From: Sulfurospirillum sp.
GTDB lineage: Bacteria > Campylobacterota > Campylobacteria > Campylobacterales > Sulfurospirillaceae
Direction of reading: 5' to 3'
Assembly: GCA_014859685.1 (NCBI GenBank)
Contig: JACUTU010000007.1
Coordinates: forward strand, 1-56,516
DNA length: 56,516 bases
How positions within the stretch are numbered: the stretch's first letter is position 1; every line of letters starts with the position of its first letter. Shown here in pieces: positions 5,532-24,446 of the stretch. The notes beneath the pieces were generated by a model that saw only the letters and a program-made list of their open reading frames with translations, had not been told where the DNA came from and ran no database searches. A program made the position numbers and the translations under genes.

Positions 5532-5535
5532 ACTT

Positions 5536-6165: not shown

Positions 6166-6168
6166 TTC

Positions 6169-6810: not shown

Positions 6811-6885
6811 AAGATTTGACTCCTTAAAATTGTTACAAGTAATATACTAAAATTGAGATTAAGGAGAGTTGAGAATTGTAATCTC

Positions 6886-6958: not shown

Positions 6959-6968
6959 AAGTGTTTCG

Positions 6969-8246
6969 TTATCGTGCTTCAGCGTCAATAACGGCTTGTA
7001 ATTTTGCCTTATAAGCTTCAATGTCAAAATCACTGATTTTAGCAACACCATCCTCGATGGCAGCTTGAGCCACAGCAGCGCTCACCCATACAAGCACCCT
7101 TCTATCAAAAGGTTTTGGGATGATATAGTTGATACCAAATTTGAAGTCTTCATTAGGATACGCGGCTTTTACATACGCAGGTGCTTCTTCTTTTGCAAGT
7201 TTTGCCATCGCCACAGCAGCAGCCATTTTCATACCCTCAGTTATCTTTGTAGCTCGTACATCAAGTGCGCCACGGAAGATAAATGGAAAACCTAGAACAT
7301 TGTTCACTTGATTTGGATAGTCACTTCTTCCTGTTCCCATCATCACATCATTGCGTGCTGCAAATACTTCTTCTGGCAGGATTTCAGGAGTTGGATTTGC
7401 AAGAGCGAAGATGATTGGATATGGATTCATACTTTTTACCATCTCTTGCGTAACAACACCTGGTGCAGAAAGTCCTAAAAACATATCAGCTCCCTTCATA
7501 GCATCGGCAAGTGTTCTATCATCTGTATCGAATGCAAAATGGGCTTTGTATTTGTTGAGATCATCTCTCTTGGAATGGATAACACCTTTGCTATCGAGCA
7601 TCACAATATGTTTTGCGCCCAAAAGTTGATACATTTTTGCACAAGCAGTGCCAGCAGCACCAGCACCTGAAACAACGATTTTCATCTCTTCGATTTTTTT
7701 ACCGCTTATCTCAAGGGCATTGATAAGTCCAGCGCTTGTAATCATCGCAGTACCGTGTTGGTCATCGTGCATAACGGGGATATCAACGCAAGCTTGAAGT
7801 TTTTCTTCAATCTCAAAGCATTGTGGAGCTTTGATATCTTCTAGGTTAATACCACCAAAAGTTGGACTCATCGCTTTACAAATTGCGACTATTTTATCTG
7901 GATCATGTTCATCAAGCTCAATATCAAAAGCATCTACATCTGCAAATTTTTTAAAAAGTACAGATTTTCCCTCCATAACAGGCTTGCCAGAAACAGCACC
8001 TATATTGCCAAGTCCAAGCACTGCCGTTCCATCACTGATAACAGCCACAAGGTTACCTTTGTTTGTGTATTTGTAAGCAAGTTCTGGATCTTTTTGGATC
8101 TCCAAACATGGATGTGCAACCCCTGGGGTATATGCTTTTGAAAGATCCCTTGCACTATCACAAGGTGTTTTTACACTGATACCTATTTTTCCACCTAGAT
8201 GATATTCTAGTGCTTCGGATTTTGTTACTTTATCTTTTTCGCTCAC
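6969..8246 (-). CDS. maeB: NAD(P)-dependent malic enzyme
   Basis: Oxidative decarboxylation of malate to pyruvate. 425 residues, the short form without the phosphotransacetylase domain found in enterobacterial MaeB. The N-terminal malic domain ([18 protein letters not shown]) is followed by a Rossmann domain ([14 protein letters not shown]) and [10 protein letters not shown]. It starts with GTG at 8246 overlapping the gltX stop as GTGA, with AAGGAG upstream, so it is translationally coupled to gltX. C. jejuni has the same gltX/malic enzyme/upp neighbourhood. Confidence 0.93.
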
Positions 8247-9634
8247 GCCTTACTCCTTTTTAATAAATAATCAATTCGCTGCATTACACCATCAAAGCCA
8301 ATCACATGTAAAACTTCAAACACAGATGGACTCACCGCATTTCCCACCATCGCTATTCGCAAAGGTTGTGCTAAATCTTTCAACCTCAACCCTTTCTCTT
8401 CTAAAAAACATTCCCCAACACTCTTAAATCCAGATGTTGCCACTTGCTCTTTTTTTGCCAGCAAGTACGCAGAAAAATCAGACAAAAGTTCCAGCGAAAT
8501 TGGATCGATGAATTTTTGTATAGCTTTTTCATCATATTCACAAGGTTCACAAACGATATGTTTTGCCATGGCTGCAAGCTCGTTTGTGTCTTTTGCTCTG
8601 TCTTTTAAGATTTCTAAAAGCAAATCAATACTTTGCACACCGCTCACATCAAGCCCATTTTGCATAAGAATCTCTACAAACTCTTCTACATGTAAGGCTT
8701 TGATATATTGGGCATTTATCCACATGAGCTTTTCAAGATTGTACGCTGAGGCGGATTTATTTATGTCGTTTGGATCAAATAACTGTTCCATTTCTTGCAT
8801 GCTAAAAAGTTCTTGATCACCATGACTCCAACCAAGACGAACGAGAAAATTGAGCAATGCTTGTGGCAAAATTCCCATTTTTTTGTACTCCATCACATCC
8901 ATAGCACCATCTCGTTTGGAAAGTTTTGCACCATTTGGAGAGAGTATCATTGGAACATGAAAAAACTTTGGAACACGAAAACCAAGTGCATTATAGATTA
9001 CTATCTGTTTTGGTGTGTTTGACAAGTGGTCATCACCTCTTATGACATCGCTCACGCCCATCAGTGCATCATCTATGCTCACTACAAAATTGTACAAAGG
9101 CGTACCATCGCTTCTGGCTATAACAAAATCATCAAGCGCATCTGCAACTTTGAACTTTACTTCACCTTTGATACCATCAACAAAAGAAATTTCACCCTCA
9201 AGTGGTGCTTTGATGCGAATAACTGGCTTGATGCCCTCTGGCGGCGTTCCATGAAAATCTCGATACCTGCCATCATATTTTGTCCGCTCTTTGTTGGCTT
9301 TTTGCTTTTCATATAAGGCATCTCTCTCTTCGCTACTCATATAACAATAGTATGCTTTTCCCTCGTCCAAAAGTTGTTTGATATACTTTTTGTAAATATC
9401 AAAGCGATCAGATTGGTAGTAGATTTGCCCATCATGACTCAAACCAACCCATGCAAAAGCTTCCACAATTGCATCAGCGGCTTCTTTTGAGTTGCGAGCA
9501 AGATCAGTATCTTCTATGCGTAAAAGAAATTTTCCGCCACGCTTCTTAGCCCACAAATAAGAATACATCGCGGTTCGCAAACCACCTATATGCAGATATC
9601 CAGTCGGAGAAGGAGCAAAACGAGTAACTATCAT
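8243..9634 (-). CDS. gltX: Glutamyl-tRNA synthetase
   Basis: Class I synthetase charging glutamate to tRNA. 463 residues. The HIGH-type motif is HIGG (residues 15-18) and the KMSKS-type motif KLSKR (237-241). Campylobacterota usually carry two GltX paralogues, one of which charges tRNA-Gln for later amidation; which one this is cannot be decided here, although its C. jejuni neighbours suggest the gltX2 position. It is the first gene of the gltX-maeB pair, divergent from the surA-like gene. Confidence 0.93.
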   Translation of the reverse strand: MIVTRFAPSPTGYLHIGGLRTAMYSYLWAKKRGGKFLLRIEDTDLARNSKEAADAIVEAFAWVGLSHDGQIYYQSDRFDIYKKYIKQLLDEGKAYYCYMSSEERDALYEKQKANKERTKYDGRYRDFHGTPPEGIKPVIRIKAPLEGEISFVDGIKGEVKFKVADALDDFVIARSDGTPLYNFVVSIDDALMGVSDVIRGDDHLSNTPKQIVIYNALGFRVPKFFHVPMILSPNGAKLSKRDGAMDVMEYKKMGILPQALLNFLVRLGWSHGDQELFSMQEMEQLFDPNDINKSASAYNLEKLMWINAQYIKALHVEEFVEILMQNGLDVSGVQSIDLLLEILKDRAKDTNELAAMAKHIVCEPCEYDEKAIQKFIDPISLELLSDFSAYLLAKKEQVATSGFKSVGECFLEEKGLRLKDLAQPLRIAMVGNAVSPSVFEVLHVIGFDGVMQRIDYLLKRSKA

Positions 9635-9813
9635 AAATTCACCTTTTAATTATTTTATTGTTTTTTTATGTCAAAACTATGTATCAAGAAAATTTTCGTA
9701 GCAAAAGAACACATTTCAGCAAACTTTAAATGCGATTTACTCAAAATAATGCTATGATTTCTTACATAAACGAGATCAATTATATACTATTTTACCTAAC
9801 AAAGGATTTATCT

Positions 9814-10656
9814 ATGAAACTTTTTTTCCGTACTTTTATAGTCACCTTATTGCTCACAAATCTTGCCATAGCCGGCATAATCAATGGCATCGCCATCGTT
9901 ATAAATAAAGAACCTATCACGCTTTATGAAGTATACAAATACGCACAACAATTAAACATCAACAACAAAGAAGCGATTGAAATACTTGTACGACAAAAGC
10001 TAGAAGATGCACAGATAAAGGAACTTGGTATCAATACTGATGATTTTGAGCTTGATAGAGCAATCGACAATTTAGCACTCAAAAATGGCATAAGTACTTT
10101 TGATTTTACCAAAATGTTACAAACACAAAACATTAAAATCCAAACTTATAAAAAAGATCTTGCAAGAAAAATAAATCGTGACAAACTCTATCAAAGAGTT
10201 TTGCCACAAAAAATACAAGCCATAAACGAGAGTGAACTCCAAACATTTTATGATACAAACAAAAATCAATTTACCATAGCTGATCGCATAAATGTGATTG
10301 CTTATATATCTAAAAATGAAACGGACTTACAAGCGATTACACAAAATCCCATGATGGCACCGCAAGGCGTTGTTGTGCAAGAACAATCTTTAGAGTTTAT
10401 CAAACTTGATGCAAGACTTCAAGGGATTTTAGCTAACACGCAAGAGAGAAATTTTACGCAAGTAATCAAACTAGGTGACAGTGCAACACTTTTTTATATA
10501 AAAGAGAAACAAGGCGTTTCATACCTTCCTTTCGAACAAGTAAAAAACAATATCTACAATGTGATGTATAACGAGCGGGAACAAAAAGCGATGGATGATT
10601 ATTTTGAAAAATTAAAATCCTCAGCCACAATTGAAGTATTTAGAAATCCTTCATAA
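9814..10656 (+). CDS. SurA-like periplasmic chaperone
   Basis: 280 residues beginning with a clear signal peptide (Lys2, a hydrophobic run, then an Ala-rich cleavage site near residue 20). The first 130 mature residues follow the SurA N-terminal helical domain (INGIAIVINKEPIT, then LVRQKLEDAQIKELG), followed by a diverged parvulin-like region. The size and position between gltX and accC match C. jejuni Cj1289, a SurA-like outer-membrane-protein chaperone. The ATG at 9814 has AAGGA 8 nt upstream; earlier in-frame ATGs would place residues before the signal peptide. Confidence 0.8.
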   Translation: MKLFFRTFIVTLLLTNLAIAGIINGIAIVINKEPITLYEVYKYAQQLNINNKEAIEILVRQKLEDAQIKELGINTDDFELDRAIDNLALKNGISTFDFTKMLQTQNIKIQTYKKDLARKINRDKLYQRVLPQKIQAINESELQTFYDTNKNQFTIADRINVIAYISKNETDLQAITQNPMMAPQGVVVQEQSLEFIKLDARLQGILANTQERNFTQVIKLGDSATLFYIKEKQGVSYLPFEQVKNNIYNVMYNEREQKAMDDYFEKLKSSATIEVFRNPS

Positions 10657-10660
10657 GTTT

Positions 10661-10689
10661 TGAGCAAATAGGAAGCACCCATTTGCTCG
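10661..10689. terminator. Inverted repeat between convergent genes
   Basis: GAGCAAAT (10662-10669) and ATTTGCTC (10681-10688) form an 8-bp perfect stem with an 11-nt loop between the surA-like stop and the accC stop. No T run follows on either strand, so terminator activity is inferred from position only. Confidence 0.45.
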
Positions 10690-10699
10690 GAGATTTGCA

Positions 10700-12034
10700 T
10701 TAAAATCTTGAGAGATAATTAGTGTCGAAGTTATTGTTGATAAAATCCTGATTGTCCATCATTTTGAGATGAAAATCTCGAACAGTTTTAATGCCCTCTA
10801 TCTGCAATTCACTCAAAGCATTTTTCATCTTTGCAATTGCACGAGTACGATCTTCTCCCCACACGATAAGTTTTCCGATCATAGAATCATAAGTTGGTGA
10901 CACGACATAATCTTGATATACATGTGAATCCATTCGGACATTGCGGCCACCTGGTATGATGTATTTGGTAATCTTGCCAGGGCTTGGGATAAACTTGATA
11001 GGATCTTCAGCGGTAATTCTACACTCTATAGCATGCCCTTTGAGTACGATCTGCTCTTGTGATGGCAAGGCTTCGCCCTGTGCGACTCTAATCATCCACT
11101 CGATAATGTCAAGTCCGCTTACCATTTCACTCACGCAATGTTCTACTTGCAATCTTGTATTCATTTCCATAAAGTAAAAATTATTGTCCGCATCGAGTAA
11201 AAATTCAAAAGTACCTGCATTTTCATACCCGATAAATTGTGTTGCTTTGATAGCAACTTCATGCAGATTTTTTCTAGTTTTCTCATCAAGTATCGCAGCA
11301 GGTGATTCTTCGATGAGTTTTTGATGACGGCGTTGCAAGGAACAATCTCGCTCACCAATACTAATGGCATTTCCGAAACTATCGCCGATGACTTGCACCT
11401 CTATGTGGCGAGGGTTTTTGATGTATTTTTCCATATACAGTGTTCCATCACCAAAGGCATTCAACGCCTCACTCTCGGCTGAAAGAAAATTCTTCTCAAG
11501 TTCCTCTTCATGCTCCACAACACGCATACCGCGACCGCCGCCGCCAGCACTAGCTTTGATGATCACAGGATAAGTAATCTCTTTAGCGAGTTTTTTTGCT
11601 TGAGCAATATTTTGCAAAGCACCCTCACTACCCAAGATAACAGGAACGCCAGCTTTTTTCATCACTTCTTTTGCTTTTGATTTATCACTCATAAGCACCA
11701 TGGTTTCAACAGAAGGTCCGATAAATTTGATGTCATGGTGCCTGCAAATTTCTACAAAACTTTGGTTTTCACTCAAAAATCCATATCCTGGAAAGATAGC
11801 ATCACAACCACTAATCTCAGCTGCACTGATGATGGAGGGGATATTGAGATAGCTTTGTGAGCTAGGCGCTTCTCCGATACAAATACTTGCATCTGCGTAC
11901 TTGAGATACAAGGCGTCTTTATCTGCTTTTGAATACACAGCAATCGCTTGTTTACCCATCTCCTTGATCGAGCGTATCGCACGCAAAGCTATCTCGCCTC
12001 TGTTTGCAACTAAAATCTTTTGTAATTGAGCCAT
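10700..12034 (-). CDS. accC: Biotin carboxylase subunit of acetyl-CoA carboxylase
   Basis: ATP-dependent carboxylation of biotin on AccB, the first half-reaction of fatty-acid synthesis. 444 residues. Seen in order: the biotin carboxylase N-domain (ILVANRGEIALRAIR), the ATP-grasp glycine loop (ASAGGGGRGM), the metal/ATP ligands (MEMNTRLQVEH) and the C-domain (AIECRITAED). Its ATG overlaps the accB stop by one base, giving an accB-accC operon; AccA and AccD are not in the window. Confidence 0.95.
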   Translation of the reverse strand: MAQLQKILVANRGEIALRAIRSIKEMGKQAIAVYSKADKDALYLKYADASICIGEAPSSQSYLNIPSIISAAEISGCDAIFPGYGFLSENQSFVEICRHHDIKFIGPSVETMVLMSDKSKAKEVMKKAGVPVILGSEGALQNIAQAKKLAKEITYPVIIKASAGGGGRGMRVVEHEEELEKNFLSAESEALNAFGDGTLYMEKYIKNPRHIEVQVIGDSFGNAISIGERDCSLQRRHQKLIEESPAAILDEKTRKNLHEVAIKATQFIGYENAGTFEFLLDADNNFYFMEMNTRLQVEHCVSEMVSGLDIIEWMIRVAQGEALPSQEQIVLKGHAIECRITAEDPIKFIPSPGKITKYIIPGGRNVRMDSHVYQDYVVSPTYDSMIGKLIVWGEDRTRAIAKMKNALSELQIEGIKTVRDFHLKMMDNQDFINNNFDTNYLSRF

Positions 12035-12474
12035 TAGAGTTTCTCCACCGCAAATAGTGGCATATCATACTCTACGGGCTGACCATCTTCAATCAAAACT
12101 TCAAGGATTTTACAATCAAACTCAGCTTCTATCTCATTCATAATTTTCATAGCTTCGATAATACCAATCGCTTGTCCTTTTTTCACAGTATTGCCAACTT
12201 TTACAAAAGACTCCGCACCAGGTGCTGGCGCTTTATAATATGTGCCAACCATTGGGGAGTTGATAGTTGGAACATCTTTTTTTACTGGTGCTTGTGTTTC
12301 TTGAGCTAAAGTTTGAGAGACTTGTGGCGTTGCTTGCACGGTGGCTGGAGCAAAACTCACACTCTCAAAGCCTTTTTGCATCTCAATACTAAAATCGCCG
12401 TCTTTAATTTTCAATTTTGTTATGCCACTTTTGTCAAAAAAACGCATCAATTCTCTAATCTCAATCTTATTCAT
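12034..12474 (-). CDS. accB: Biotin carboxyl carrier protein
   Basis: Carries biotin between AccC and the transcarboxylase. 146 residues with an N-terminal helical part, a flexible Ala/Pro/Thr/Gln-rich linker (about residues 41-70), and a C-terminal biotinyl domain whose EAMKIMNE loop places the biotinylated lysine at residue 110. Upstream of and overlapping accC. Confidence 0.95.
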   Translation of the reverse strand: MNKIEIRELMRFFDKSGITKLKIKDGDFSIEMQKGFESVSFAPATVQATPQVSQTLAQETQAPVKKDVPTINSPMVGTYYKAPAPGAESFVKVGNTVKKGQAIGIIEAMKIMNEIEAEFDCKILEVLIEDGQPVEYDMPLFAVEKL

Positions 12475-12547
12475 TTGCTATCCTTATACGGTTATCTAAA
12501 AAATTAAGCTCTATTTTACTATTTTCGCTCTACAAAACTTCTTAAAG

Positions 12548-12982
12548 TTACTGTATTTGTTCCATAACGACTCCATTTTGTACAATAAATTTTGTCACAA
12601 TTTTTGAATTTGTATGTTCGTAGGATCTATCATAGACTATTCTCTTGATACCACTTGCTATGATGTTTTTACTGCATTCGCTACATGGCTCAAGTGTGAC
12701 ATAAATCGTCGCATCTTTTATGCTTATCCCCTCGCGAGCTGCCCAGATAATGGCATTCATCTCAGCATGAATCTCATATGTTTTACTCCATTCGTGATGC
12801 TCACTTGTGTATTTTCCATCCCAAAAATCACAGCAATTTACAAAACCAGCTGGTGTGCCATTGTATCCTGTGCTCAAAATTCTACCATTTTTTACAATCA
12901 CAGCTCCAACTTGCTTCGAAACGCACTTGCTCGCTTTTGCTATCTCGTGAGCTATGTTAATAAAATTTTTATCACTCAACAC
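12548..12982 (-). CDS. Deoxycytidylate (dCMP) deaminase, ComEB type
   Basis: Deaminates dCMP to dUMP for thymidylate supply. 144 residues with the zinc/catalytic HAE (His72, Glu74) and PCxxC (Cys100, Cys103) motifs, plus the extended Cys/His-containing segment before HAE (NCCDFW...SEHHEW) usual in dCMP deaminases. It starts at GTG (12982) or the next codon TTG, overlapping the end of the methyltransferase gene, so coupled translation is likely. C. jejuni has dcd at the equivalent place, so a different enzyme appears to fill the same metabolic niche here. Confidence 0.85.
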   Translation of the reverse strand: MLSDKNFINIAHEIAKASKCVSKQVGAVIVKNGRILSTGYNGTPAGFVNCCDFWDGKYTSEHHEWSKTYEIHAEMNAIIWAAREGISIKDATIYVTLEPCSECSKNIIASGIKRIVYDRSYEHTNSKIVTKFIVQNGVVMEQIQ

Positions 12983-13568
12983 CCTTTTTCTCCTTTTTTA
13001 CAAGAACGCTCATATCATTTTTCAAATAACCCACAACGATCTTACATGTAAGACCTTTTTGCACAATGAAAGTTTCTATTTGTTTTTCTGTTTTGTAGTT
13101 GTAAATTTTGCTCTTTTTTTCGCCACAGAGTATGTTAAAAACAATTCCTTTTTGGGCATGTAAAAGCATTTTTTCTAAAAAAAGCCATGTTTCAAAGTCA
13201 CTTAAGAGATTTAAGCTTCCACTAGCTATGTACCAATCTGCCATAGGTAAAGAATCTTTGAGGATATCTCTTTGCAAAAAAACTGCATTTGCAATTCTTC
13301 GGTTTGCGATAGTGATGAACTTATCAAAGCTATCTATACCGATATAATTCTTTGGCTTTAATCCCATTTTTTGCCAAAAAAGATATAAATCTCCAAAACC
13401 ACATCCAGCATCAACAACGCTACATGTAAGCAATTCCTTGGCAATAAATTGCGTAAGCACAGAAAAGCGAATCTCTTGATTTTCAACAGAATTCCAACTC
13501 AATCCCTGTACGCTGATACCGTGCTTTTTGAGAGATGCTTTATAAAAAAATTGATTGTTTATGGCCAT
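12972..13568 (-). CDS. SAM-dependent methyltransferase of unknown target
   Basis: 198 residues. The SAM-binding glycine loop VVDAGCGFGDLY and the following acidic residue in YIGIDSFD mark a class I Rossmann methyltransferase. A later segment (DWYIASGSLNLL) resembles motif IV. It sits 3 nt downstream of the FlaC-like flagellin gene and overlaps the dCMP deaminase gene by 11 nt. A link to flagellin or surface modification is possible from position only. Confidence 0.7.
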   Translation of the reverse strand: MAINNQFFYKASLKKHGISVQGLSWNSVENQEIRFSVLTQFIAKELLTCSVVDAGCGFGDLYLFWQKMGLKPKNYIGIDSFDKFITIANRRIANAVFLQRDILKDSLPMADWYIASGSLNLLSDFETWLFLEKMLLHAQKGIVFNILCGEKKSKIYNYKTEKQIETFIVQKGLTCKIVVGYLKNDMSVLVKKEKKGVE

Positions 13569-13571
13569 GTG

Positions 13572-14327
13572 CTACATCAGTAGCGCTGAAACTCTTTTTT
13601 GGAGCATCTCATTTTGATGCACCTGCGCCATACTTGCACTTTCAAGTTTTAACTGTGCGAGATTGAAGTCATTTATCTTTGTATCCATCGGGGCTTCTTG
13701 TATCTGCGAAGCTGCGCTTGTGAGGTTTGAAACAGCTGCGAGCGAATTGGTTATGCCTACTGCAAATTGTTGCATAGATGAGCCGATGCTTGCACGCGTA
13801 GTATCTATATTTTGGCGAAAATTTTGTATGCCATCTTGATTTTCGATACTAAGCCCGTTCAAGCCACCAACTTCCATTGGGCCTGTACTTACAACTCCGC
13901 TACCCGTTTCAAAACTCATCGAATCATTTAAAATTGCTTTGCCATTGTAAGTTGTGCTTTGCACGATATCTTGCATGGCTTTTTGTGTGTCATTAAATTC
14001 TACTGTGAGCATATTTTTTTGGTCACTATTAAGAGCGGCACTGTTATACCTAACAGAGAGTTCTTGCAATTTATCCGCATTTATCGTGATATTTGCTAGC
14101 GAAGCATCAGCTATTTGCAATATACCAATCGCATCGTTGGAGTTTTGTACGCCTTGTGTGAGTGTAGAAATTTGAGAATTTAGTGCATCGGCGATGAGTA
14201 GATTTGAGGTGTCTTTACCACTCAATTCTCGCGTAGCTCCTATCTTTGAGAGAGCCTGCTCGGCTAGAGTTTTATTTTGATTGATGTAGTTCGCATTTTG
14301 TGTGTTAAAACTATTTCCGATTTTCAT
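13572..14327 (-). CDS. Short flagellin-like protein (FlaC type)
   Basis: 251 residues, about the size of C. jejuni FlaC (249), a flagellin homologue secreted through the flagellar export system. It has flagellin-like D0/D1 segments at both ends (N-terminal ALSKIGATRELSGKDTSNLLIADAL and C-terminal coil) but little between them, so it lacks the surface-exposed D2/D3 domains and the usual LLQ C-terminus. The ATG at 14327 has AAGGAG 7 nt upstream. Its leader contains mobile element copy C, with a consensus sigma-70 promoter upstream. FlaC is inferred from size and architecture. Confidence 0.75.
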   Translation of the reverse strand: MKIGNSFNTQNANYINQNKTLAEQALSKIGATRELSGKDTSNLLIADALNSQISTLTQGVQNSNDAIGILQIADASLANITINADKLQELSVRYNSAALNSDQKNMLTVEFNDTQKAMQDIVQSTTYNGKAILNDSMSFETGSGVVSTGPMEVGGLNGLSIENQDGIQNFRQNIDTTRASIGSSMQQFAVGITNSLAAVSNLTSAASQIQEAPMDTKINDFNLAQLKLESASMAQVHQNEMLQKRVSALLM

Positions 14328-14347
14328 GATAAACTCCTTAGTATTCA

Positions 14348-14437
14348 CTGATGTTACGCACTAAAGCTACGAAAAGGATACTTTTCGAGAAAATTAGAGG
14401 TATTTACGAACTTTTTTACAAAAGTGCGTAAGGTCAG
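14348..14437 (+). mobile_element. Miniature inverted-repeat element, copy C (90 bp)
   Basis: Same length as copy A and nearly identical to it. It is flanked by GTATTCA (14341-14347) and TTATTCA (14438-14444), a 7-bp duplication with one change. It lies between the promoter at 14453-14481 and the FlaC-like start at 14327, so it should be transcribed as part of that gene's leader. Confidence 0.88.
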
Positions 14438-14452
14438 TTATTCATTAAAATT

Positions 14453-14481
14453 ATTATACACCTCGAGAGCTAATGTGTCAA
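14453..14481 (-). promoter_or_regulatory. Consensus sigma-70 promoter
   Basis: On the minus strand TTGACA (14481-14476) is followed after exactly 17 nt by TATAAT (14458-14453): a perfect housekeeping promoter. It points at the FlaC-like gene about 125 nt away, with element copy C in between. Confidence 0.85.
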
Positions 14482-14566
14482 GAATTTTTAAACATGTTTA
14501 CATTGTCTCACAATATGGAATAAAAATTGCTTTTTTTAAAAAAATCAAGTTTTTAAGGCGTATTTT

Positions 14567-15724
14567 ATGAAACCCGTATTTGTCACTCAACCTTACCTTC
14601 CACCGCTTGATGATTTTATCCCTTATTTAAAACAAATTTGGAAAAGTAAAATTTTAACCAATGGAGGACCTTTTCATCAGCAACTTGAAGAGGCGTTGTG
14701 CGATTATTTGGGCGTTAAGCATATCTCTCTTTTTACCAACGGCACCTTAGCACTTGTTACTGCTTTGCAAACACTCCGAATAACAGGTGAAGTGATAACA
14801 ACGCCGTACAGTTTTGTAGCCACCGCCCATTCGCTACTTTGGAATGGAATTAAACCTGTCTTTGTTGATATTGACTCCACCACTCTTAATCTTGACCCCT
14901 CTAAAATAGAAGCCGCAATCACACCTCAAACAACCGCGATACTTCCTGTGCATTGCTATGGTCATTCTTGCGACATCAAAACAATCGAAGCAATCGCCGA
15001 TAATTATAATCTCAAAGTCATTTATGACGCGGCTCATGCATTTGGCGTTAAAGATGAAGGGGGAAGTATTTTGCGTCATGGAGATCTTTCGATTCTGAGT
15101 TTTCATGCAACAAAGGTTTTCAATACATTTGAAGGCGGAGCCATTATCTCCCCAGATGCCAAAACAAAACAACGAATCGATCACTTAAAGAATTTTGGAT
15201 TTGTGGATGAAGTGACCGTTGTTGCACCTGGAATCAATGGCAAGATGTCAGAGATAAATGCAGCACTTGGGCTTCTCCAACTTGAGCATATCAACAGTGC
15301 TATTGAAAAAAGAAAAGAAGTAGATCGGATATATCGAGATGCTCTTAGCGATACTCGTGGCATCACACTTCTATACGAAAAAACTGAAGCTTTCAGCAAT
15401 TATTCCTATTTTCCCATCCTCGTTGAAGATGATTTTCCGCTAACTCGAGATGAGTTGTACCAACATTTACACGATCATAATATTTTTGCGCGTCGTTATT
15501 TTTATCCGCTTATCTCTGATTTTCCAATGTATCGCGGGCTACCATCCGCCACATCCTCAAATCTAGCAACTGCTAAAGAGATTGCATCAAAAGTGATTTG
15601 TTTGCCAATATATCCTCAATTGGACTCTTTAAGTTTAAGCAATATCATGGATATTATAAAAAGGCTAGATATAGATAAATATACTGGGATTTTGGCATCG
15701 AAAATGGAGAAACTCAATGGATAA
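14567..15724 (+). CDS. Sugar aminotransferase (DegT/DnrJ/EryC1/StrS family)
   Basis: PLP-dependent transamination of a nucleotide-activated keto-sugar. 385 residues. Opens with PYLPPLDDF and LTNGGPFHQQLE, typical of the VioA/WecE/FdtB branch; FTNGTLAL binds the cofactor phosphate, and SFHATKVFNTFEGG holds the internal aldimine lysine. It overlaps an acyltransferase gene by 8 nt, giving an aminate-then-acylate pair as in dTDP-N-acyl-amino-dideoxy sugars. No dehydratase is in the window, so the activated sugar must be made elsewhere. The location between flagellin genes points to flagellar or surface glycan. Confidence 0.87.
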   Translation: MKPVFVTQPYLPPLDDFIPYLKQIWKSKILTNGGPFHQQLEEALCDYLGVKHISLFTNGTLALVTALQTLRITGEVITTPYSFVATAHSLLWNGIKPVFVDIDSTTLNLDPSKIEAAITPQTTAILPVHCYGHSCDIKTIEAIADNYNLKVIYDAAHAFGVKDEGGSILRHGDLSILSFHATKVFNTFEGGAIISPDAKTKQRIDHLKNFGFVDEVTVVAPGINGKMSEINAALGLLQLEHINSAIEKRKEVDRIYRDALSDTRGITLLYEKTEAFSNYSYFPILVEDDFPLTRDELYQHLHDHNIFARRYFYPLISDFPMYRGLPSATSSNLATAKEIASKVICLPIYPQLDSLSLSNIMDIIKRLDIDKYTGILASKMEKLNG

Positions 15725-16268
15725 ATATAAAATACCACATGTAAAAACTTTTGAATATACAAAAATAATTGGCTTAGAAAATATAGAATTTGGAAAAAAT
15801 ATTATTATTGATGATTTTGCATTTATCTATGCAAAAAGTAAAATAAAATTAGGTAATTTTGTACATATTGGTATTTATGCTTCTATTACTGGGGGAGATG
15901 AATTAGTTGTAGGTGATTTTAGTGCAATTTCGCAAGGTGTTAGAGTACTCACTGCGACTGATGATTTTAAAGATTGGGGATTTGGAAATTCCACTATTGA
16001 TAATCAATTTAGGAATGTTAAAAGTTTTCCAATAAGTATTGGCAAATTTTGTATTATTGGGGCAAATTCAGTTATTTTGCCAAGTGTAAATATTTCAGAA
16101 GGTGCAATGGTAGGAGCAAATTCAGTAGTTACAAAAAACTTAGAACCTTGGGGCATCTATGTAGGCAATAAAAAAGTTGGAATGAGAAACAAAGAAGAAG
16201 TTTTGAAAAACTATGAAAAATTTTTAGCAACTAGCGAAAATGAAAGAGTTGGGAATCTGTTCAAATAA
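15717..16268 (+). CDS. Hexapeptide-repeat acyltransferase
   Basis: 183 residues with left-handed beta-helix hexapeptide repeats (IGANSVILPS, then MVGANSVVTKN) as in CatB/NodL-type O- or N-acetyltransferases. Probable partner of the overlapping aminotransferase, acylating the new amino group. It is markedly more AT-rich than its neighbours and is followed by about 195 nt of degraded coding-like sequence, hinting that this part of the cluster was acquired separately. Confidence 0.8.
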   Translation: MDKYKIPHVKTFEYTKIIGLENIEFGKNIIIDDFAFIYAKSKIKLGNFVHIGIYASITGGDELVVGDFSAISQGVRVLTATDDFKDWGFGNSTIDNQFRNVKSFPISIGKFCIIGANSVILPSVNISEGAMVGANSVVTKNLEPWGIYVGNKKVGMRNKEEVLKNYEKFLATSENERVGNLFK

Positions 16269-16279
16269 TGGCAACATGA

Positions 16280-16402
16280 GCATCAAACATTAAAGCCCAA
16301 GATGTAAAAAATTATCTTCAAAAAGAGAATATTGATATAGAGAAGCTTAAAGACAATGGCATTGAATGCGATAGAAGCGAGAGATGTCGGATGAAGAAAT
16401 AA
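16280..16402 (+). pseudogene. Unrecognised coding-like remnant
   Basis: A 40-codon open stretch without a start codon (beginning just after a TGA, including QDVKNYLQKENIDIEKL) overlaps a second short frame at 16384-16467 (27 codons, MSDEEIMRFKLPFD) whose stop overlaps the start of the giant glycosyltransferase gene. The protein-like composition of both suggests the tail of a lost gene split by a frameshift. No homology is recognised. Confidence 0.25.
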
Positions 16403-16463
16403 TGAGATTTAAACTCCCATTTGATACAACAATGAAGAAAAAAATAAAACGAGGAAAAATTCA

Positions 16464-19400
16464 ATGAAAAAATATCGTTGCAATTATTGTGAAAATCAAT
16501 TTGATTCTTTTACTCCCTACAGAATCAGTAGTGAAACACCGAATGTCTTTTCAGAAATAGTAGGGAGCAATATCGAACAGTTTGGCTGCCCTGTTTGTGG
16601 CGCACATGATAGAGAACGGCATCTCAAACTTTATTTTGAAGCGTTAAAACTCTTTGAAAAAATTCCCAACGCGCGTATTCTGCATTTCGCGCCCGAACAT
16701 CATTTTACACAATATATTGCTTCATTTAAACCTGAATTACATATCAAAGCGGATTTATCTCCCTCATCTCCAACCGTTATATCCTTAAACATCGAGACTA
16801 TCCCTTATGACGACAACTCCTTTGATATTGTTATAGCCAATCATATTTTAGAACATGTTTCAAATATCGATGCTGCTTTGTCAGAAATCAATCGTGTTTT
16901 AAGGCCAGATGGGGTTGCTATATTGCAAACGCCATATAGCACTGTACAAGAAACAACGCTAGAAGATCCTACAATCAATACCGATGCACTTCGTTTGCAA
17001 TACTATGGACAAGAAGATCATGTGCGGCTTTTTGGTAGAAATATCTTTGAATATTTTTCACGATTTTTAGAGAATAGCGCTCACTTACATGTAAACCTTT
17101 TTAAGGATGTGGATACTTCGAAATTCGGAATCAATCCGCAAGAACCTCTCTTTTTATTTCGCCATAAAAAAAGTGAAAAAGATGTTAAAGTGCCTGAACG
17201 AACACGAAGCGAACAGGAGATTCTATCGTCATGGACTCAGAAAACTCCGCTTGTCAGTATTGCCTGTATTACCTATAATCACGAACATTATATTGCTCAA
17301 ACGATTGAAAGTTTTTTGATGCAAGAGACGGAATTTCCTTTCGAAATCATCATAGGGGAAGATTGTAGCACAGACAATACTCGCACCATTGTTGAATCGT
17401 ATCGCTTACACTATCCCAAGCTCATTCGCGTTTTATACCCTGAGTCTAATGGCGGTTTTCAGCACAATTTAGTACAAACATTTCAAAACTGTCAAGGAGA
17501 TTTTATCGCGCTGTGTGAAGGTGATGATTATTGGACTGATCCCAAAAAACTCCAAAAGCAAGTAGATTATCTCCAAAATAATCCCGATTGCGTTATCACT
17601 TACGGAGCTGTTCAGGCATTTGATGAAAATGGCATTGTTTATAATTATGTTGGGGGCGCTACTTTTGATCTCACACGAGAGCAACTGCAAAACTGTCATC
17701 CAATCAATACACTAACCACTTGTTTTCGCAATATATTAGGAAAATTGCCACCAGAATATTTCGTAACAGGGTATGGCGATCTCTTTTTATGGTCACTTTT
17801 AGGACATTTTGGAACCGGAAAATACATCAACTCCATTTTACCTTCTCGCTACCGAATACATGCTGGCGGCGTTCACTCATCGCAATCATCGCAAACCAAG
17901 CATGCCATGCTGGTAGAAACTTATTTTGCTTTATATTTGTATTATAAAAGGATTGGTTCCCTAACACTCAGTGAAGATTGTTATAAAAATGCCGCGATGA
18001 TAATTCATCAAATACACAACAGTGTAACATATGAAAATGGTTCCGAATTATTTGAGAGCTCTTTAGAAAAGATCAAAAAAAGATGTACAAACAATTATGC
18101 GTTTAATATACAAGAGTATGAAGCTTTGCTTGATCGTCATACTCTAAAAACTTTTTTAGGCAACCATACTTCGATCAAAGCAAAAAAAGTTGTCGCTTAT
18201 CTCGCTGATCCTTTTGACACCGACAATTACCTTGACTTGACTCTCAATATTTTTAGTTCTATCGGTAACTTAAAAGATTACTGCGTAGAACCGTTACTCC
18301 AAAAAAGTAATGGACGCTACCACCTCAAAATGGATTTATTAGCAACCTTACATGTAGTCATCATCTATGACAAAGCGGCCTATTTCTCACATCTTATCCC
18401 TCAAATCAAAGCATGCGGGATTCCTGTACTTTTCTATGTGCATACCGATGTTTGGAATGTTGATGTGAAACATAGAGCAAAAGAAGCACTGGATTTATTA
18501 CAACCTCATTATCGCGCGTGTATTGAGCTTTGTGATAAAGTGGTAACATCCAATGAGTATTTAAATCAAAACATTGGCAAAGAAAGCGATGTTATCACCC
18601 CTCTCATCGACATCTCACCATGGAATGAATCCAATAAAAAGCCACCTCGATTGAGCGATAAATTTACCGTTGCGGTTTATGTGAGTATGGATAATCTCAA
18701 TGATATTTCTATGATTGCAAAATTTATTCAAACCATTCAAAAAAAATATAATGATGAGCTTTATTTTGTAGTGTATGCCATCAATACTCCATCAAATGAA
18801 CTCGAAGCATTGAGCTTTACTGATGTTAAACTAACAAAAATTGATAATTATCTTCAATACATCAACTTTATCCGTTCTCAGCCAATCGATGCAGTCCTCA
18901 CGCCCCTCATCGCCAATACACACAATCTCACCATCTCGCCTTTGAATTATTTCATTCAATCGCTTTGTGGCATACCTGGACTTTACAGCAATTGGGGGCT
19001 TTATAAAGAGGTGATACAACACGGGGTTACAGGATTTTTATGTAATGAAAATGAACTCGATTGGGAGGCTGCACTTGTTACACTGATGCGCCATCCAGAC
19101 ACCAAAGAAGAGATAGCCAAAGCTGCAAAAAAACAGGTCTTGGAAAATTTTACAACTGACCATATTTTGCGTCAAATCTATGATTTATTGGAGCATTTTG
19201 AAGCACCCAAGTCTCCAAGAATCATTCCAGATGCCCTCAATATATCTTTTACGCGATACGAATTACTCTCTTTTTTAAGTTATCCGGCATGGTGCGATAT
19301 AAAAGCATTGCGACCAAGCGACATACCTGTTTGGGATTCTTTAGCACAAAGTTGGAAATCGTTGCCTGAGTTTCATTTTTTTGTGCAAGCAGATGAAACA

Positions 19401-21941
19401 AATTTAGCCAATTTAGCTGACACAGTTGAGAGTTTTGTGGCGCAACTCTATCCGCAGTGGAACCTTTATATCATTGCATCAATTGCTTCACCAAATCCTC
19501 TTTTTGATGAGCACAATAAAATTCACTGGATCCAAATGGAAGGTTCGCTTTACAGTGCTATCAATTATGTCTGTATGCAATTAAACAAAGGTATGATCGG
19601 TTTTGTTGTAGCAGGGGATAGATTGCAACCCCATGCACTCACCGCATACACGGAAACTTTTAATTGCTCAGAAACGCATCTCATCTACTCTGATCATGAC
19701 AATTTGGATGCATCCAAAAATCGGATCTATCCACAATTTAAACCAGACTTCAATCTTGATATGTTCAGGTCAAAAAATTATATCTCTCGAAGTTTTGTTA
19801 TCTCCGCAATTGCGCTCAAAGAGTTAGGTGGATTACAACTAGAATTGAGCGATAGCGAGTTGTTTGATTTGATTTTGCGTTATTGTGATTTTTTTGGAGA
19901 ACATACTATTGCTCATTATAGTGATATTTTACATTCATTGATTAGAGAAAATAAACACATCGATTTACATTTACTTTCCTCTAAAATAGCTTTAAAACAC
20001 CATTTAAATCGAAATGGACTGGTTGCGGATGTTATTGATGAAAAGGAAGAGAGTTTTCGCATTCTCTATCACCACGAATCAACTCCACTAGTAAGCATTA
20101 TTATTCCAACTAAAAATCAAGTTCATTTTTTACGCCCGTGTATTGAAACATTTTTAGAAAAAACAGCTTATAAAAATTATGAAATTATTATTGTCGATAA
20201 TCACTCTGATGAAGCAAGTGCCATTGAGTATCTCGCGTCGTTACAAAAGTATGAAAATATTCATGTCATCGCTTACAACAAGCCTTTCAACTATTCAGAG
20301 GCCAATAACATTGGAGCTCAGTATGCAAAAGGAGAATTTTTACTCCTTCTAAACAACGATACCGAGATACTCCATGAAAACTGGCTCGATGTTCTCCTTT
20401 CTTATGGACAACGCAATGACATCGGTATTGTTGGGCCACGGCTCATCTACCCAAATCAAACCATTCAGCACGCAGGGGTAATTGTAGGACTCAGTAATTG
20501 TGCCGATCATCAATTTACAGGATCTGACCTCTACGATCCTGGTTACATGTCACGCCTCCAAATCGATCAAAATCTCTCCGCAGTTACTGCCGCCGTTATG
20601 CTCATTAAACGCTCTATTTTTGATGCAGTATCTGGCTTAGATGACACGCATTACCATGTCAATTTTAGTGATGTTGATTTTTGTCTCAAAGTAGTGAAAG
20701 CGGGGTATAAAATACTCTTCACTCCACATGCTACTCTATTGCATCATGGCTCAGTAACACAAAAAAATATTGATGTGAAAAAGGTGGAAGAGAAGAAAAA
20801 ACGCTTTTTAGAAGATAAAAATTCATTAATAAGCAGATGGGGCGAGATGATCATACACGACCCGGCATACAATGTCAACTTAGATACTGCTGACTCTTCG
20901 ATGTCTATCCAAACCAGAGCATTAGCACATTGGAATCCGCTTTTAAAATCACCGATTCCAAAAATTTTAGGAATGGCAAGAGGTAAAGATGGTGGTGGAT
21001 TTTATCGCATAACTTCTCCTTTAGATGCTCTTGAAGCATCTAATTTGGCACAAACTCACTATGAATATAAAAGTTATATACCAATCTATATGATGATACA
21101 ACAGCCTGAAATTATTGTCTATCAAACACCACTTCATGATGGGATGATCATTTTCTTGGAAGCAATCAAAACAATTTTCCCGAATGTTACCCTTATTTTT
21201 GAGATCGATGATCTTCTCACCAATATTCCTATCGATAATCGTGCCTTTCATAATCAATATAAAGATACTCACAAACGGATACTCAAAGCGATGAAATATT
21301 GTGATCGAATGGTTGTCTCAACGCAACCGCTCAAAGATGCCTTTCAAAAATATAGTGAAGATATTCGCATCATCCCCAACTATTTACCAAAAGCTATTTG
21401 GGGAGATCTGCATTCACAACGCAATCGTTCAGAAAAATTACGAGTCGGATGGGCGGGAAGTATTTTTCACAAAGGCGATCTGGCCTTAATCTCCAAACTC
21501 GTTGAAAAATATCAAGATGTTGTCGAATGGGTATTTTTTGGTATGGCCCCAGAAGGGCTTGAGGGTAAAATCGAATTTCACGAGGGCGTATCTTTGGATC
21601 TCTACCCAAAAAAATTGGCTAGCTTAGATTTAGATCTCGCACTTGTGCCTCTTGAAGATAACCAATTTAATGCAGCTAAAAGCAATTTACGCCTCTTAGA
21701 GTTTGGGATACTTGGTTGGCCTGTAATCTGTAGTGATGTTTATCCTTATCAAGAAGGGCCTGTGACGCGAGTCAAAAACAGATATAAAGACTGGGAAAAA
21801 GCTTTTTTGACTAAGATTTCTGATCTAGAGACTCTTCAAAAAGAGGGAGATAGGCTTAAAAAATGGGTTAAAGAAAATTATATGCTTGAAGATCATGTTG
21901 ATTTTATTTTTCACCAATATACACAAGCGAAAGATATATAA
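16464..21941 (+). CDS. Giant multidomain methyltransferase/glycosyltransferase (1825 aa)
   Basis: A single 1825-residue protein with five catalytic-type modules. Residues 1-240: Zn-ribbon cysteines (Cys6/9, Cys42/45) and a SAM methyltransferase (HILEHV motif near 128). 255-480: GT2 glycosyltransferase (PLVSIACITYN, EDCSTDN, CEGDDYW). 570-915: GT4/GT-B-like domain. 960-1190: degenerate GT2-like module with YSDHDNLD. 1200-1450: second intact GT2 (VSIIIPTKNQ, LLNNDTEI, SDVDF). 1480-1825: GT-B-type C-terminal domain (RVGWAGS). No signal peptide or membrane segment is seen, so it should act in the cytoplasm. Next to sugar-modifying genes and convergent with flagellin, it probably assembles a flagellin or surface glycan in one polypeptide. 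The acceptor is unknown. Confidence 0.85.
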   Translation: MKKYRCNYCENQFDSFTPYRISSETPNVFSEIVGSNIEQFGCPVCGAHDRERHLKLYFEALKLFEKIPNARILHFAPEHHFTQYIASFKPELHIKADLSPSSPTVISLNIETIPYDDNSFDIVIANHILEHVSNIDAALSEINRVLRPDGVAILQTPYSTVQETTLEDPTINTDALRLQYYGQEDHVRLFGRNIFEYFSRFLENSAHLHVNLFKDVDTSKFGINPQEPLFLFRHKKSEKDVKVPERTRSEQEILSSWTQKTPLVSIACITYNHEHYIAQTIESFLMQETEFPFEIIIGEDCSTDNTRTIVESYRLHYPKLIRVLYPESNGGFQHNLVQTFQNCQGDFIALCEGDDYWTDPKKLQKQVDYLQNNPDCVITYGAVQAFDENGIVYNYVGGATFDLTREQLQNCHPINTLTTCFRNILGKLPPEYFVTGYGDLFLWSLLGHFGTGKYINSILPSRYRIHAGGVHSSQSSQTKHAMLVETYFALYLYYKRIGSLTLSEDCYKNAAMIIHQIHNSVTYENGSELFESSLEKIKKRCTNNYAFNIQEYEALLDRHTLKTFLGNHTSIKAKKVVAYLADPFDTDNYLDLTLNIFSSIGNLKDYCVEPLLQKSNGRYHLKMDLLATLHVVIIYDKAAYFSHLIPQIKACGIPVLFYVHTDVWNVDVKHRAKEALDLLQPHYRACIELCDKVVTSNEYLNQNIGKESDVITPLIDISPWNESNKKPPRLSDKFTVAVYVSMDNLNDISMIAKFIQTIQKKYNDELYFVVYAINTPSNELEALSFTDVKLTKIDNYLQYINFIRSQPIDAVLTPLIANTHNLTISPLNYFIQSLCGIPGLYSNWGLYKEVIQHGVTGFLCNENELDWEAALVTLMRHPDTKEEIAKAAKKQVLENFTTDHILRQIYDLLEHFEAPKSPRIIPDALNISFTRYELLSFLSYPAWCDIKALRPSDIPVWDSLAQSWKSLPEFHFFVQADETNLANLADTVESFVAQLYPQWNLYIIASIASPNPLFDEHNKIHWIQMEGSLYSAINYVCMQLNKGMIGFVVAGDRLQPHALTAYTETFNCSETHLIYSDHDNLDASKNRIYPQFKPDFNLDMFRSKNYISRSFVISAIALKELGGLQLELSDSELFDLILRYCDFFGEHTIAHYSDILHSLIRENKHIDLHLLSSKIALKHHLNRNGLVADVIDEKEESFRILYHHESTPLVSIIIPTKNQVHFLRPCIETFLEKTAYKNYEIIIVDNHSDEASAIEYLASLQKYENIHVIAYNKPFNYSEANNIGAQYAKGEFLLLLNNDTEILHENWLDVLLSYGQRNDIGIVGPRLIYPNQTIQHAGVIVGLSNCADHQFTGSDLYDPGYMSRLQIDQNLSAVTAAVMLIKRSIFDAVSGLDDTHYHVNFSDVDFCLKVVKAGYKILFTPHATLLHHGSVTQKNIDVKKVEEKKKRFLEDKNSLISRWGEMIIHDPAYNVNLDTADSSMSIQTRALAHWNPLLKSPIPKILGMARGKDGGGFYRITSPLDALEASNLAQTHYEYKSYIPIYMMIQQPEIIVYQTPLHDGMIIFLEAIKTIFPNVTLIFEIDDLLTNIPIDNRAFHNQYKDTHKRILKAMKYCDRMVVSTQPLKDAFQKYSEDIRIIPNYLPKAIWGDLHSQRNRSEKLRVGWAGSIFHKGDLALISKLVEKYQDVVEWVFFGMAPEGLEGKIEFHEGVSLDLYPKKLASLDLDLALVPLEDNQFNAAKSNLRLLEFGILGWPVICSDVYPYQEGPVTRVKNRYKDWEKAFLTKISDLETLQKEGDRLKKWVKENYMLEDHVDFIFHQYTQAKDI

Positions 21942-21947
21942 AATTAC

Positions 21948-21979
21948 TCTCTTACGCGACTCGAAGAGCGCGTAAGAGA
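21948..21979. terminator. Hairpin between glycosyltransferase and flagellin stops
   Basis: An 11-bp perfect stem (TCTTACGCG side at about 21950-21958, CGCGTAAGA side at 21969-21977) with a 10-nt loop lies between the two convergent stop codons. Either strand could use it; no long T run follows. Confidence 0.6.
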
Positions 21980-22000
21980 TATAGAGATGATGTTATAAGA

Positions 22001-23443
22001 TTATTGTAGAAGTCTTAAAACATTTTGTTGAACCGCATTTGCTTGACTCATTGCATAACTTCCTGATTGCGCAAGAATGTTATATTTGGAGAAGTTTGCT
22101 GATTCTGCTGCAAAGTCAACATCACGGATCTGTGATTCTGCCGCCTTTACATTTACTTGAGTAACTGAGATATTGTTTATGGTTGAAATCATTTGATTTT
22201 GAGTAGAACCGATATCCCCACGAATAGTATCAAGGCGTTTGATTGCTGATTCTGCAATTGTCATCATCGCTTGAGCACCTTCGTAAGTATTGACACCCGC
22301 TGCCAATGTTTCACCATATCCAACTTGTCCACTAGCAAATGCACCCATCGCTTTAACTTCACCAGAAGCAAATCCATCCAATGTTGAACGAAGATTGATA
22401 GTTGCTTCTACAGTTGTTCCGCCCATACCTGATGCCTTAATATCAGCACCATTTGTATTTGTAAGTGTAAGATTGCCGGTAGTTAAACCAGTTGCGACAC
22501 TGTCTAGCGTACCTGAAACATCTATAGCACGGCCACTTGTTGAACTCAAAACAAGATTACCACGACTATCCACACTTGCGCTTACGCCAGTACTTTCCTT
22601 AACCGCATTAATCGCCGCAACAAGTTTACCATCGCTATCATTAGCTTTGATATCAGTTACATTAATGCTAACACCATTGATACCAAAACTTGCGGTCGCT
22701 GCTGCAGCAACTGCAGCCGTACCAACCGTACTCACATTGTAGCTTGCTTTTACACCGAGTAAATCACTGTTTTTGTTAATTGTTTCTGCTAAAACGCCAA
22801 CACCTTCTTCTGCACCACTTCCAATGATAACTGATTCAAGTGAAACTGTTTTTGTAGCATCTGACGCTGTACCAGTAAATGTTAGTGTTACCGCACCAGC
22901 TGCAATTCCTTCAGTTGTTTCAAAGCGTGATTGACCAATTTTATCTGTACTAGTAGCGCCAATACTTGCTGAAATTGTCTGATTTGTGTATGCACCTACT
23001 TGGAATTGTGCATTCGTAAACTGTCCTGAAAGCAATGATTTTCCATTAAATGATGTAGTAGAGGCAATATTGTCCAAAGACCCCATCAAACGAGTAATAT
23101 CCGCTTGAAGTGCTTTACGAGAATCGGCGCTTTGACCATCTTGCGCAGCTTGTGTTGCTTTGACTTTAATTGTATCTAAAATTTTAAGTTGCTCATCCAT
23201 CGCTTTATCAGCGATTTGAAGCATACTAACACCATCATTTGCATTTGCAATTGCTTGACCTAATGTACTTGCTTGTGAACGCAATGAATCTGCAATTGCC
23301 AATCCAGACGCATCATCAGCTGCTGTGTTGATACGCAAACCTGAAGATAGCTTTGCCAAAGAGCCATCTAAACTTCTGTTGTTAACATTTGCTGCTGTAT
23401 GAGCATTCATCGCTGCAATGTTTGTATTAATTCTGAAACCCAT
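22001..23443 (-). CDS. flaA: Flagellin
   Basis: Filament subunit exported by the flagellar type III system. 480 residues with conserved N-terminal D0/D1 ([41 protein letters not shown]), a variable Ala/Thr/Ser-rich centre (about 190-390), and conserved C-terminal D1/D0 ending NVLRLLQ. The variable centre is the usual site of O-glycosylation in Campylobacterota. The ATG at 23443 has AAGGA 8 nt upstream and gives the canonical MGFRINTN start; an in-frame extension to 23509 is rejected. A sigma-28-type promoter is at 23499-23525. Confidence 0.95.
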
Positions 23444-23496
23444 GATAAATCCTTTTATCTTTTGTATTTCGCGGGCATCCTTGCCTTTGATAAAAA

Positions 23497-23829
23497 CTAA
23501 ATCGTACATGTGAAAAAAAAGTTTAGAGGGTTTGGAGAAAAATTTACATTCTTGACAATAAAAACTTGATTATTATCGCTGATATTAGCTATGTTAGTGA
23601 GGATTTGCAAGAAGAGATGCATCGAAATAGCAAGTGCTTCAAGCTCACATTCAAGATCACGGAAGAGCTGACCAAAAGTTTGTGGTTCATGCTTGATTCG
23701 ATTGATGTAACTAAGCAGGTTGTAGGTGAACATTGAGAGCGTTATGCGAGCAATAAGAGCCTCGTAGAGGCGATTCTCTTCGCGTCCTAGCCCAAAGTAT
23801 TCCCGTAAATCTTTGTAGTTTCTGGCCTG
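23497..23829 (-). pseudogene. C-terminal remnant of a DDE transposase
   Basis: About 110 in-frame codons after an in-frame stop near 23835, with no start. The segment LREYFGLGREENRLYEALIA followed by FTYNLLSYINRI and EPQTFGQLFRDLE resembles the C-terminal part of IS4-like DDE transposases. The frame runs into the flagellin promoter region, and its last residues are non-homologous. It fills most of the gap between flagellin and the Uma2-like gene; the remainder (about 23830-23906) is AT-rich and shows nothing else. The exact IS family is uncertain. Confidence 0.6.
23499..23525 (-). promoter_or_regulatory. Sigma-28-type flagellar promoter
   Basis: On the minus strand TAAA (23525-23522) is followed after 17 nt by CGATTT (23504-23499), close to the flagellar sigma-28 pattern TAAA-N15-GCCGATAA (17 nt from TAAA to CGAT). 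It lies 56 nt upstream of the flagellin start and is the expected class 3 control for flaA. Confidence 0.65.
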
Positions 23830-23906
23830 ACCCCTTGATTAAACTTTCAAGTAAAAAAAGTTTATAGTAATTATGATATAATTGAATCAAAAATGGAGAA
23901 ACTGTT

Positions 23907-24446
23907 ATGGGTGCTTTGGATTACTTACCACATTATACTTATGAAGATTATGTTCAGTGGGAAGGTAAATGGGAAGTTATACATGGTATCGCTTATGCTA
24001 TGAGTCCGGCTCCTATGATAAAACATCAAAATATTAGTGGAAAAATAGCTGCAGAGCTGAACAGCATATTTGAAAAATGCAAAAAATGCACAGCTCTCTT
24101 ACCAGTTGATTGGAAAATTAAAGAAGACACTATAGTGCAACCTGATAATCTTGTCATATGTGATAAACCAGCAAGCAAAACTTACATAAGCAAAGCTCCA
24201 AAGATTATCTTTGAAATCCTATCAAAATCAACAGCAAAAAAAGACTTACATGTAAAGTATGATATATATGAGCGAGAAGGAGTCAACTACTACATCATAG
24301 TAGATCCAGATGAAGAACTAGCAAATGTATACAAACTAAACAACGGAAGATATATGAAGGTCTGTGATGCAACTGACGAAAAAGTAGAATTTGAACTCAA
24401 AGAGTGTGATGCGACCCTAGAATTTGATTTTTCTAAGATTTGGTAA
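23907..24446 (+). CDS. Uma2-family (DUF820) putative nuclease
   Basis: 179 residues of the Uma2/DUF820 family, a PD-(D/E)XK restriction-endonuclease-like fold of unsettled biological role that often spreads with mobile DNA. The family core is visible: MSPAPMIKHQNISGKI, VQPDNLVICD (catalytic Asp), IIFEILSKSTAKKD with the Glu and Lys, then KYDIYEREGVNYYIIVDP. It sits alone between a transposase remnant and topA, followed by its own hairpin. TTACATGTAA occurs at 24246-24255. Confidence 0.8.
   Translation: MGALDYLPHYTYEDYVQWEGKWEVIHGIAYAMSPAPMIKHQNISGKIAAELNSIFEKCKKCTALLPVDWKIKEDTIVQPDNLVICDKPASKTYISKAPKIIFEILSKSTAKKDLHVKYDIYEREGVNYYIIVDPDEELANVYKLNNGRYMKVCDATDEKVEFELKECDATLEFDFSKIW

Follow-up and report, generated by a model that had tools for sequence, protein, structure and literature searches.

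A putative FgtA-type flagellin glycosyltransferase fused to a methyltransferase, encoded at the flagellin locus that holds Maf cassettes in relatives of a Sulfurospirillum species

Glycosyltransferases of the FgtA type modify flagellin in Pseudomonas. In P. aeruginosa PAO1, pa1091 (fgtA) mutants carry mainly unglycosylated flagellin, and pa1088–1090 mutants retain only the core deoxyhexose (PMC11833859). P. syringae has Fgt1 and Fgt2 together with a viosamine island (vioA, vioM, vioT, and vioB), and a modified 4-amino-4,6-dideoxyglucose caps rhamnose on its flagellin (PMC3927599). The Campylobacterota, by comparison, are known for Maf systems. In C. jejuni, filament assembly is believed to depend on nonulosonic acids carried by the flagellin (PMC13130089). 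Within a partial coverage of the literature, no report of an FgtA-type system from the Campylobacterota was found. Aeromonas Fgi-1 was set aside as a comparison because the fragment amplified for its gene measures about 1.25 kb, which points to an enzyme of single-domain size.

We analysed a 56,516-nucleotide stretch of a Sulfurospirillum sp. genome (contig JACUTU010000007.1 of assembly GCA_014859685.1), referred to here as the window. It contains a giant open reading frame of 1825 codons, with an ATG start and no internal stops, whose end lies 59 bp from the end of a convergent flagellin gene. The features of this locus, in window coordinates, are listed below with the evidence for each.

14349–22000, no strand: exchangeable cassette interval, here DegT, acyltransferase, and giant gene (flank comparison)
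14567–15724, + strand: DegT/DnrJ/EryC1 sugar aminotransferase (Pfam, NCBIfam, PDB match, tree)
15717–16268, + strand: hexapeptide acyltransferase (Pfam, PDB match, relatives)
16464–21941, + strand: candidate 1825-aa multi-module flagellin glycosyltransferase of FgtA type (ORF, Pfam, relatives)
16464–17198, + strand: module 1, aa 1–245, Zn-ribbon-like segment and class I SAM methyltransferase (Pfam)
17199–18143, + strand: module 2, aa 246–560, GT2 (GT-A; PF00535 at 265–390)
18144–19238, + strand: module 3, aa 561–925, GT-B/GT4-like (Pfam, alignment with the relative in genome G053)
19239–20063, + strand: module 4, about aa 926–1200, degenerate GT2, degenerate family-wide (alignment and model)
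20064–20933, + strand: module 5, about aa 1201–1490, GT2 with intact NNDTE and DVD motifs (Pfam, alignment, fold)
20934–21941, + strand: module 6, aa 1491–1825, GT-B (profile search, alignment, fold)
22001–23443, − strand: flagellin, convergent, presumed acceptor (Pfam, ORF list); its start is probably 23443 (MGFRINTN), not 23509

Pfam and a structure model of the C-terminal half give the domain order methyltransferase, GT2, GT-B-like, degenerate GT2, GT2, and GT-B. Residues 103–153 match Methyltransf_11, a Zn-ribbon-like CxxC...CPVC segment can be read by eye in residues 6–45, and two stretches (residues 265–390 and about 1210–1330) match Glycos_transf_2 (PF00535) strongly. The GT-B matches in Pfam are weak: Glyco_trans_1_2 (834–906) is barely above its cut-off and Glyco_transf_4 (1595–1639) is below it. 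The model of residues 925–1825 is confident (mean pLDDT 92.8, pTM 0.90). Its segment 1497–1825 resembles solved GT-B/GT4 structures (Z about 25), and the segment at about 1186–1477 resembles GT-A polypeptide GalNAc-transferases (Z about 23). An earlier, sequence-only reading of this DNA had described a giant fused protein between sugar aminotransferase/acyltransferase genes and a convergent flagellin gene; the frame is intact, and the neighbours, a DegT aminotransferase, a hexapeptide acyltransferase, and the convergent flagellin, are as it stated. The domains that it listed are recovered by Pfam and the C-terminal model, although its title counted five modules and its own list gives six, one of them degenerate. 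The structure prediction of each module that it proposed succeeded for the C-terminal half and failed for the N-terminal half, whose model was unusable (pLDDT 42).

The C-terminal half is homologous to PA1091/FgtA, with 34% identity over 849 residues (E = 4e-122) in a direct comparison. In a plasmid collection, the best match outside Campylobacterota is the product of a P. aeruginosa b-type flagellin locus, encoded between homologues of PA1088–1090 and fliC; this product is PA1091/FgtA. As a separate observation, an 847-kb P. aeruginosa record labelled as a conjugative plasmid (L046, NZ_CP131792.1) carries flgJ to fleR, which are normally chromosomal.

A contig scan with whole-protein patterns gave no matches, as the patterns probably came from unconserved stretches. 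Relatives were gathered with an alignment-based profile of the last GT-B domain, module 6, where FgtA-type enzymes are most conserved and which tracks with flagellin. This profile identified 384 relatives among 84,980 species genomes. GT2 and GT-B domains share a single frame in 77 of the best 80 of these 384 loci, and a flagellin gene lies within 10 kb in 67 of the 80 and within 1.5 kb in 60. By our own estimate from genome size, chance would place flagellin inside such a stretch at roughly one locus per hundred. The remaining 13 of the best 80 have no flagellin inside 10 kb, some of them on short contigs. Within the family, the giant gene was found in one of 44 genomes, the window's own. Among 397 Campylobacterota genomes, the sole other relative that spans modules 3–6 is an 1818-aa protein of a Helicobacteraceae MAG (G053; 37% identity over 1260 residues), whose gene also ends convergently on flagellin. 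A Sulfuricurvum MAG (L062) provides a third Campylobacterota case, in which the core is convergent with flagellin and topA follows.

These contexts help to weigh whether the protein is instead an LPS O-antigen or capsule enzyme that came to lie beside flagellin by chance or because surface-sugar genes in general tend to insert at this site. O-antigen loci often contain DegT and hexapeptide genes, and the aminotransferase and acyltransferase of the window could serve LPS or capsule. The GT2 pair, without the full core, also occurs in 13 other Campylobacterota loci with no flagellin in the fetched stretches, some of which are short, and in Azospirillum it stands beside rml genes, away from any listed flagellin gene. 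However, the full core with its C-terminal GT-B lies near flagellin in the 67 loci counted above, across phyla, two other Campylobacterota loci among them. Moreover, relatives keep a Maf flagellin glycosylation cassette at the same site as the giant gene, and loss of PA1091 strips flagellin of its glycan (PMC11833859). An LPS or capsule role thus appears quite unlikely. The flagellin-glycosylation role put forward in the sequence-only reading gains support from the PA1091 homology and from the nearby flagellin genes, and the giant protein is most probably a flagellin glycosyltransferase of the FgtA type whose set of modules is new, a member of a class known from Pseudomonas in an unusual setting.

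The modules differ in how intact they look. Module 2 retains its EDCSTD and EGDDYW motifs, as read by eye. In module 4 (about residues 950–1186), the usual GT2 N-terminal Asp motif is gone, as it is in nearly all relatives in a 60-sequence alignment, and this module is probably catalytically inactive. In its C-terminal motif, module 3 has a Gln at the position where the G053 relative bears the usual Glu; this two-sequence alignment makes its activity doubtful, and it too may be inactive. The 60-sequence alignment indicates that family-conserved core residues are retained in the giant protein. In module 6, H1669, N1736, K1739, and E1746 are invariant in the 60 relatives, and the DxD Asp of module 5 (D1299) is kept in 43 of 60; because these relatives were collected by means of the GT-B domain, the figures are partly biased. 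The DxD Asp is missing in PA1091, so the active module may differ between family members. Polypeptide GalNAc-transferases act on Ser/Thr. The GalNAc-transferase-like fold of module 5 alone does not establish such a function, and we think that module 6 or module 5 puts on the first sugar.

Flagellin glycosylation by this protein could, in one form, involve every module, as a processive synthase that builds a complete oligosaccharide on flagellin alone, the form proposed in the sequence-only reading. Several glycosyltransferase modules are covalently joined to a methyltransferase, and modules 2 and 5 seem to have kept their GT2 motifs, but the losses at module 4 and perhaps module 3 make a functioning transfer step in all modules unlikely. 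We regard a fully processive enzyme as an unlikely form of flagellin glycosylation here.

The giant frame looks like a fusion of neighbouring genes, because unfused relatives of module 1, either encoded by a gene of their own or contained in a shorter protein, occur near the FgtA-type genes of Marinobacter, Deefgea, and other bacteria (L067, L069, L075, L080, L082, and L114; 30–35% identity). The Deefgea locus (L114) has the order methyltransferase, DegT, acyltransferase, FgtA, flagellin, flaG, fliD, and fliS, and thus holds the gene set of the window with the methyltransferase unfused. FgtA-type proteins more generally carry variable N-termini on a constant core (e.g., a phosphotransferase in PA1091). 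PA1088 was considered as the parent of the fused methyltransferase and found to be unsupported (E = 0.019, 22% over 50 aa).

The genes next to the giant frame fit a supply of dTDP-sugars. The adjacent DegT protein is 57–71% identical to DegT proteins of FgtA-flagellin loci in Stutzerimonas, Pseudomonas, and Marinobacter and nests among these Pseudomonadota proteins in a tree, a placement suggestive of inter-phylum transfer. Its best NCBIfam model is DesI (292.7 bits, below the cut-off of 650), and its best solved relative is PDB 2po3, which we take to be DesI. The acyltransferase is 46–48% identical to acyltransferases encoded beside FgtA genes in L068 and L114, and its best PDB relatives are the 3vbi series (91 versus 47 bits), presumably AntD. 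The substrate readings for both enzymes are drawn from best relatives at moderate similarity, below NCBIfam cut-offs. On another contig of the same genome (C15), rmlA, rmlC, rmlD, and rmlB lie together in one operon, all four above curated cut-offs. Their presence would provide dTDP-rhamnose and dTDP-4-keto-6-deoxyglucose, the latter as the substrate of the aminotransferase. We saw no vioS, vioR, or acp adjacent to the cassette. Elsewhere in the genome, another rmlA–rmlB set precedes a gene resembling a TDP-Fuc4NAc transferase (WecF) (L058, G000 C1, 1327–5093), which suggests another dTDP-amino-sugar glycan.

We propose, with good confidence, that the giant protein O-glycosylates flagellin in the cytoplasm, independently of Maf, as an enzyme of the FgtA (PA1091/Fgt1/Fgt2) type that replaces the Pse/Leg-Maf system at its locus. 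Its C-terminal core (degenerate GT2, GT2, and GT-B) would recognise flagellin and add the first sugar or sugars to Ser/Thr, probably from a dTDP-sugar such as rhamnose. The N-terminal modules (methyltransferase, GT2, and GT-B-like) would add or methylate an outer sugar. This is likely to be a 4-amino-4,6-dideoxyhexose: the neighbouring aminotransferase would form it from dTDP-4-keto-6-deoxyglucose and the neighbouring acyltransferase would N-acylate it, giving a sugar that closely resembles the modified viosamine on P. syringae flagellin. Here we infer the assignment of modules to steps, the identities of the sugars, and flagellin as the acceptor.

Comparison of flanks indicates what occupies the site in relatives. 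The same-genus genome G043 is colinear with the window on both sides of the interval: on the left across homologues of window genes 1279 to 13572, and on the right across flagellin, topA, bioB, and the genes that follow. Between these flanks it carries a biosynthesis operon that includes NeuB, as well as a Maf gene that runs convergently to flagellin. G042 and G036 have the same convergent NeuB/Maf arrangement, and G028 and G017 carry a NeuB and Maf cassette in which Maf is downstream of flagellin and both genes share one strand. G002 and G010 are without the Maf and NeuB families, and their flanks are joined with no cassette between them. A single site therefore bears alternative glycosylation systems or none, and the cassette of the window would have replaced the Pse/Leg-Maf system there. 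Searches of the window's own 2.1 Mb genome found no Maf (PF01973) and no NeuB (PF03102), each of which was positive in 37 of 44 family genomes. The sequence-only reading had seen no pse/leg or Maf genes in view and likened the neighbourhood to the Campylobacter-type locus; the absence extends to the whole genome for the NeuB and Maf families, and same-genus relatives hold NeuB...Maf at that very spot. G053, rated 100% complete, is also without Maf and NeuB. A strict mutual exclusion of Maf and FgtA systems is not universal, as the Sulfuricurvum MAG of L062 has both.

The window groups with G043 in a topA tree (98/98), and its flagellin groups elsewhere in a flagellin tree (99/95); flagellin may have moved together with the cassette, but Maf-type flagellins belong to that group too. 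The cassette has no clear GC anomaly that would mark recent foreign composition apart from the acyltransferase gene (GC 0.286). The absence of the giant gene from the other 43 family genomes searched might also reflect a decaying or non-functional remnant gained by transfer. Yet its frame is intact over all 1825 codons, the family-conserved core residues are kept, its composition (GC 0.373, GC3 0.318) is near that of neighbouring genes, and the adjacent genes are intact, so that a remnant is very improbable.

Several other features border the cassette. At its left edge (12972–14348), a small methyltransferase gene is paired with one for a 258-aa protein with Flagellin_N and a marginal Flagellin_C match. 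The pair is present in the Maf-cassette relatives G043, G042, G036, and G017 and was not found in the examined stretches of the cassette-less G002 and G010; it may be functionally tied to flagellin modification. Upstream of flagellin (23444–23906), a reverse-strand open stretch of ∼100 codons looks like a transposase remnant by eye and has no Pfam match. Between it and the flagellin start lies a CGATTT box, which we take to resemble Campylobacter sigma-28 promoters. The flagellin-topA gap also contains a Uma2-family nuclease-like gene (23907–24446; 79% with G002) that was not seen there in the other mapped relatives.

On balance, we favour the view that the flagellin glycosylation genes of this Campylobacterales family form an exchangeable cassette at one locus, either Pse/Leg-Maf, fused FgtA-type of partly Pseudomonadota origin, or none. 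A filament could then be built without nonulosonic acid, with a viosamine-like capped glycan made by a single protein in which transferases and a methyltransferase are fused. Close relatives that differ at one locus by whole replacement with unrelated machinery offer a natural experiment on the purpose of flagellin glycosylation and on flagellin adaptation. The compact fused enzyme would allow flagellin recognition, elongation, and methylation to be dissected in one protein, and the FgtA type would extend to a phylum known for Maf.

Among described systems, PA1091 with PA1088–PA1090 of PAO1 shares the homologous GT2deg-GT2-GT-B core, the flagellin-adjacent gene, and a fused extra module for later glycan steps. 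The PA1091 N-terminus, however, is a CDP-glycerol-type phosphotransferase, whereas that of the giant protein comprises a methyltransferase, GT2, and GT-B-like module; no clear relationship links the PA1088 methyltransferase to the fused one, and no PA1089/PA1090-like genes are named adjacent to the giant gene. The P. syringae system likewise combines flagellin glycosyltransferases with an aminotransferase, an acyltransferase, and a methyltransferase, a likeness of described functions, but there the functions are separate proteins from two loci, while in the window the methyltransferase and transferases are fused and all lie in one locus. The G053 protein (L032/L063) is alike over its 1260 aligned residues, module 3 included, in its convergent flagellin, and in its lack of Maf/NeuB. 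It differs in an N-terminus of two GT2 domains, where the giant protein has a methyltransferase and GT2, and in the PPDK-like, amidotransferase, nucleotidyltransferase, and CDP-glycerol-type transferase genes upstream. The PPDK/PEP-utiliser-like, glutamine amidotransferase, nucleotidyltransferase, and formyltransferase-like genes of that flagellin cassette (L032, 4343–9811) would make up an unusual donor pathway. Finally, the Maf/nonulosonate system of Campylobacterota has in common with the giant gene the chromosomal site beside flagellin and the presumed acceptor, and differs in unrelated enzymes and donor sugars. The sequence-only reading is supported in expecting a flagellin glycan system unlike Maf/nonulosonate, but the system is not new in kind, as its core is of the FgtA type known from Pseudomonas.
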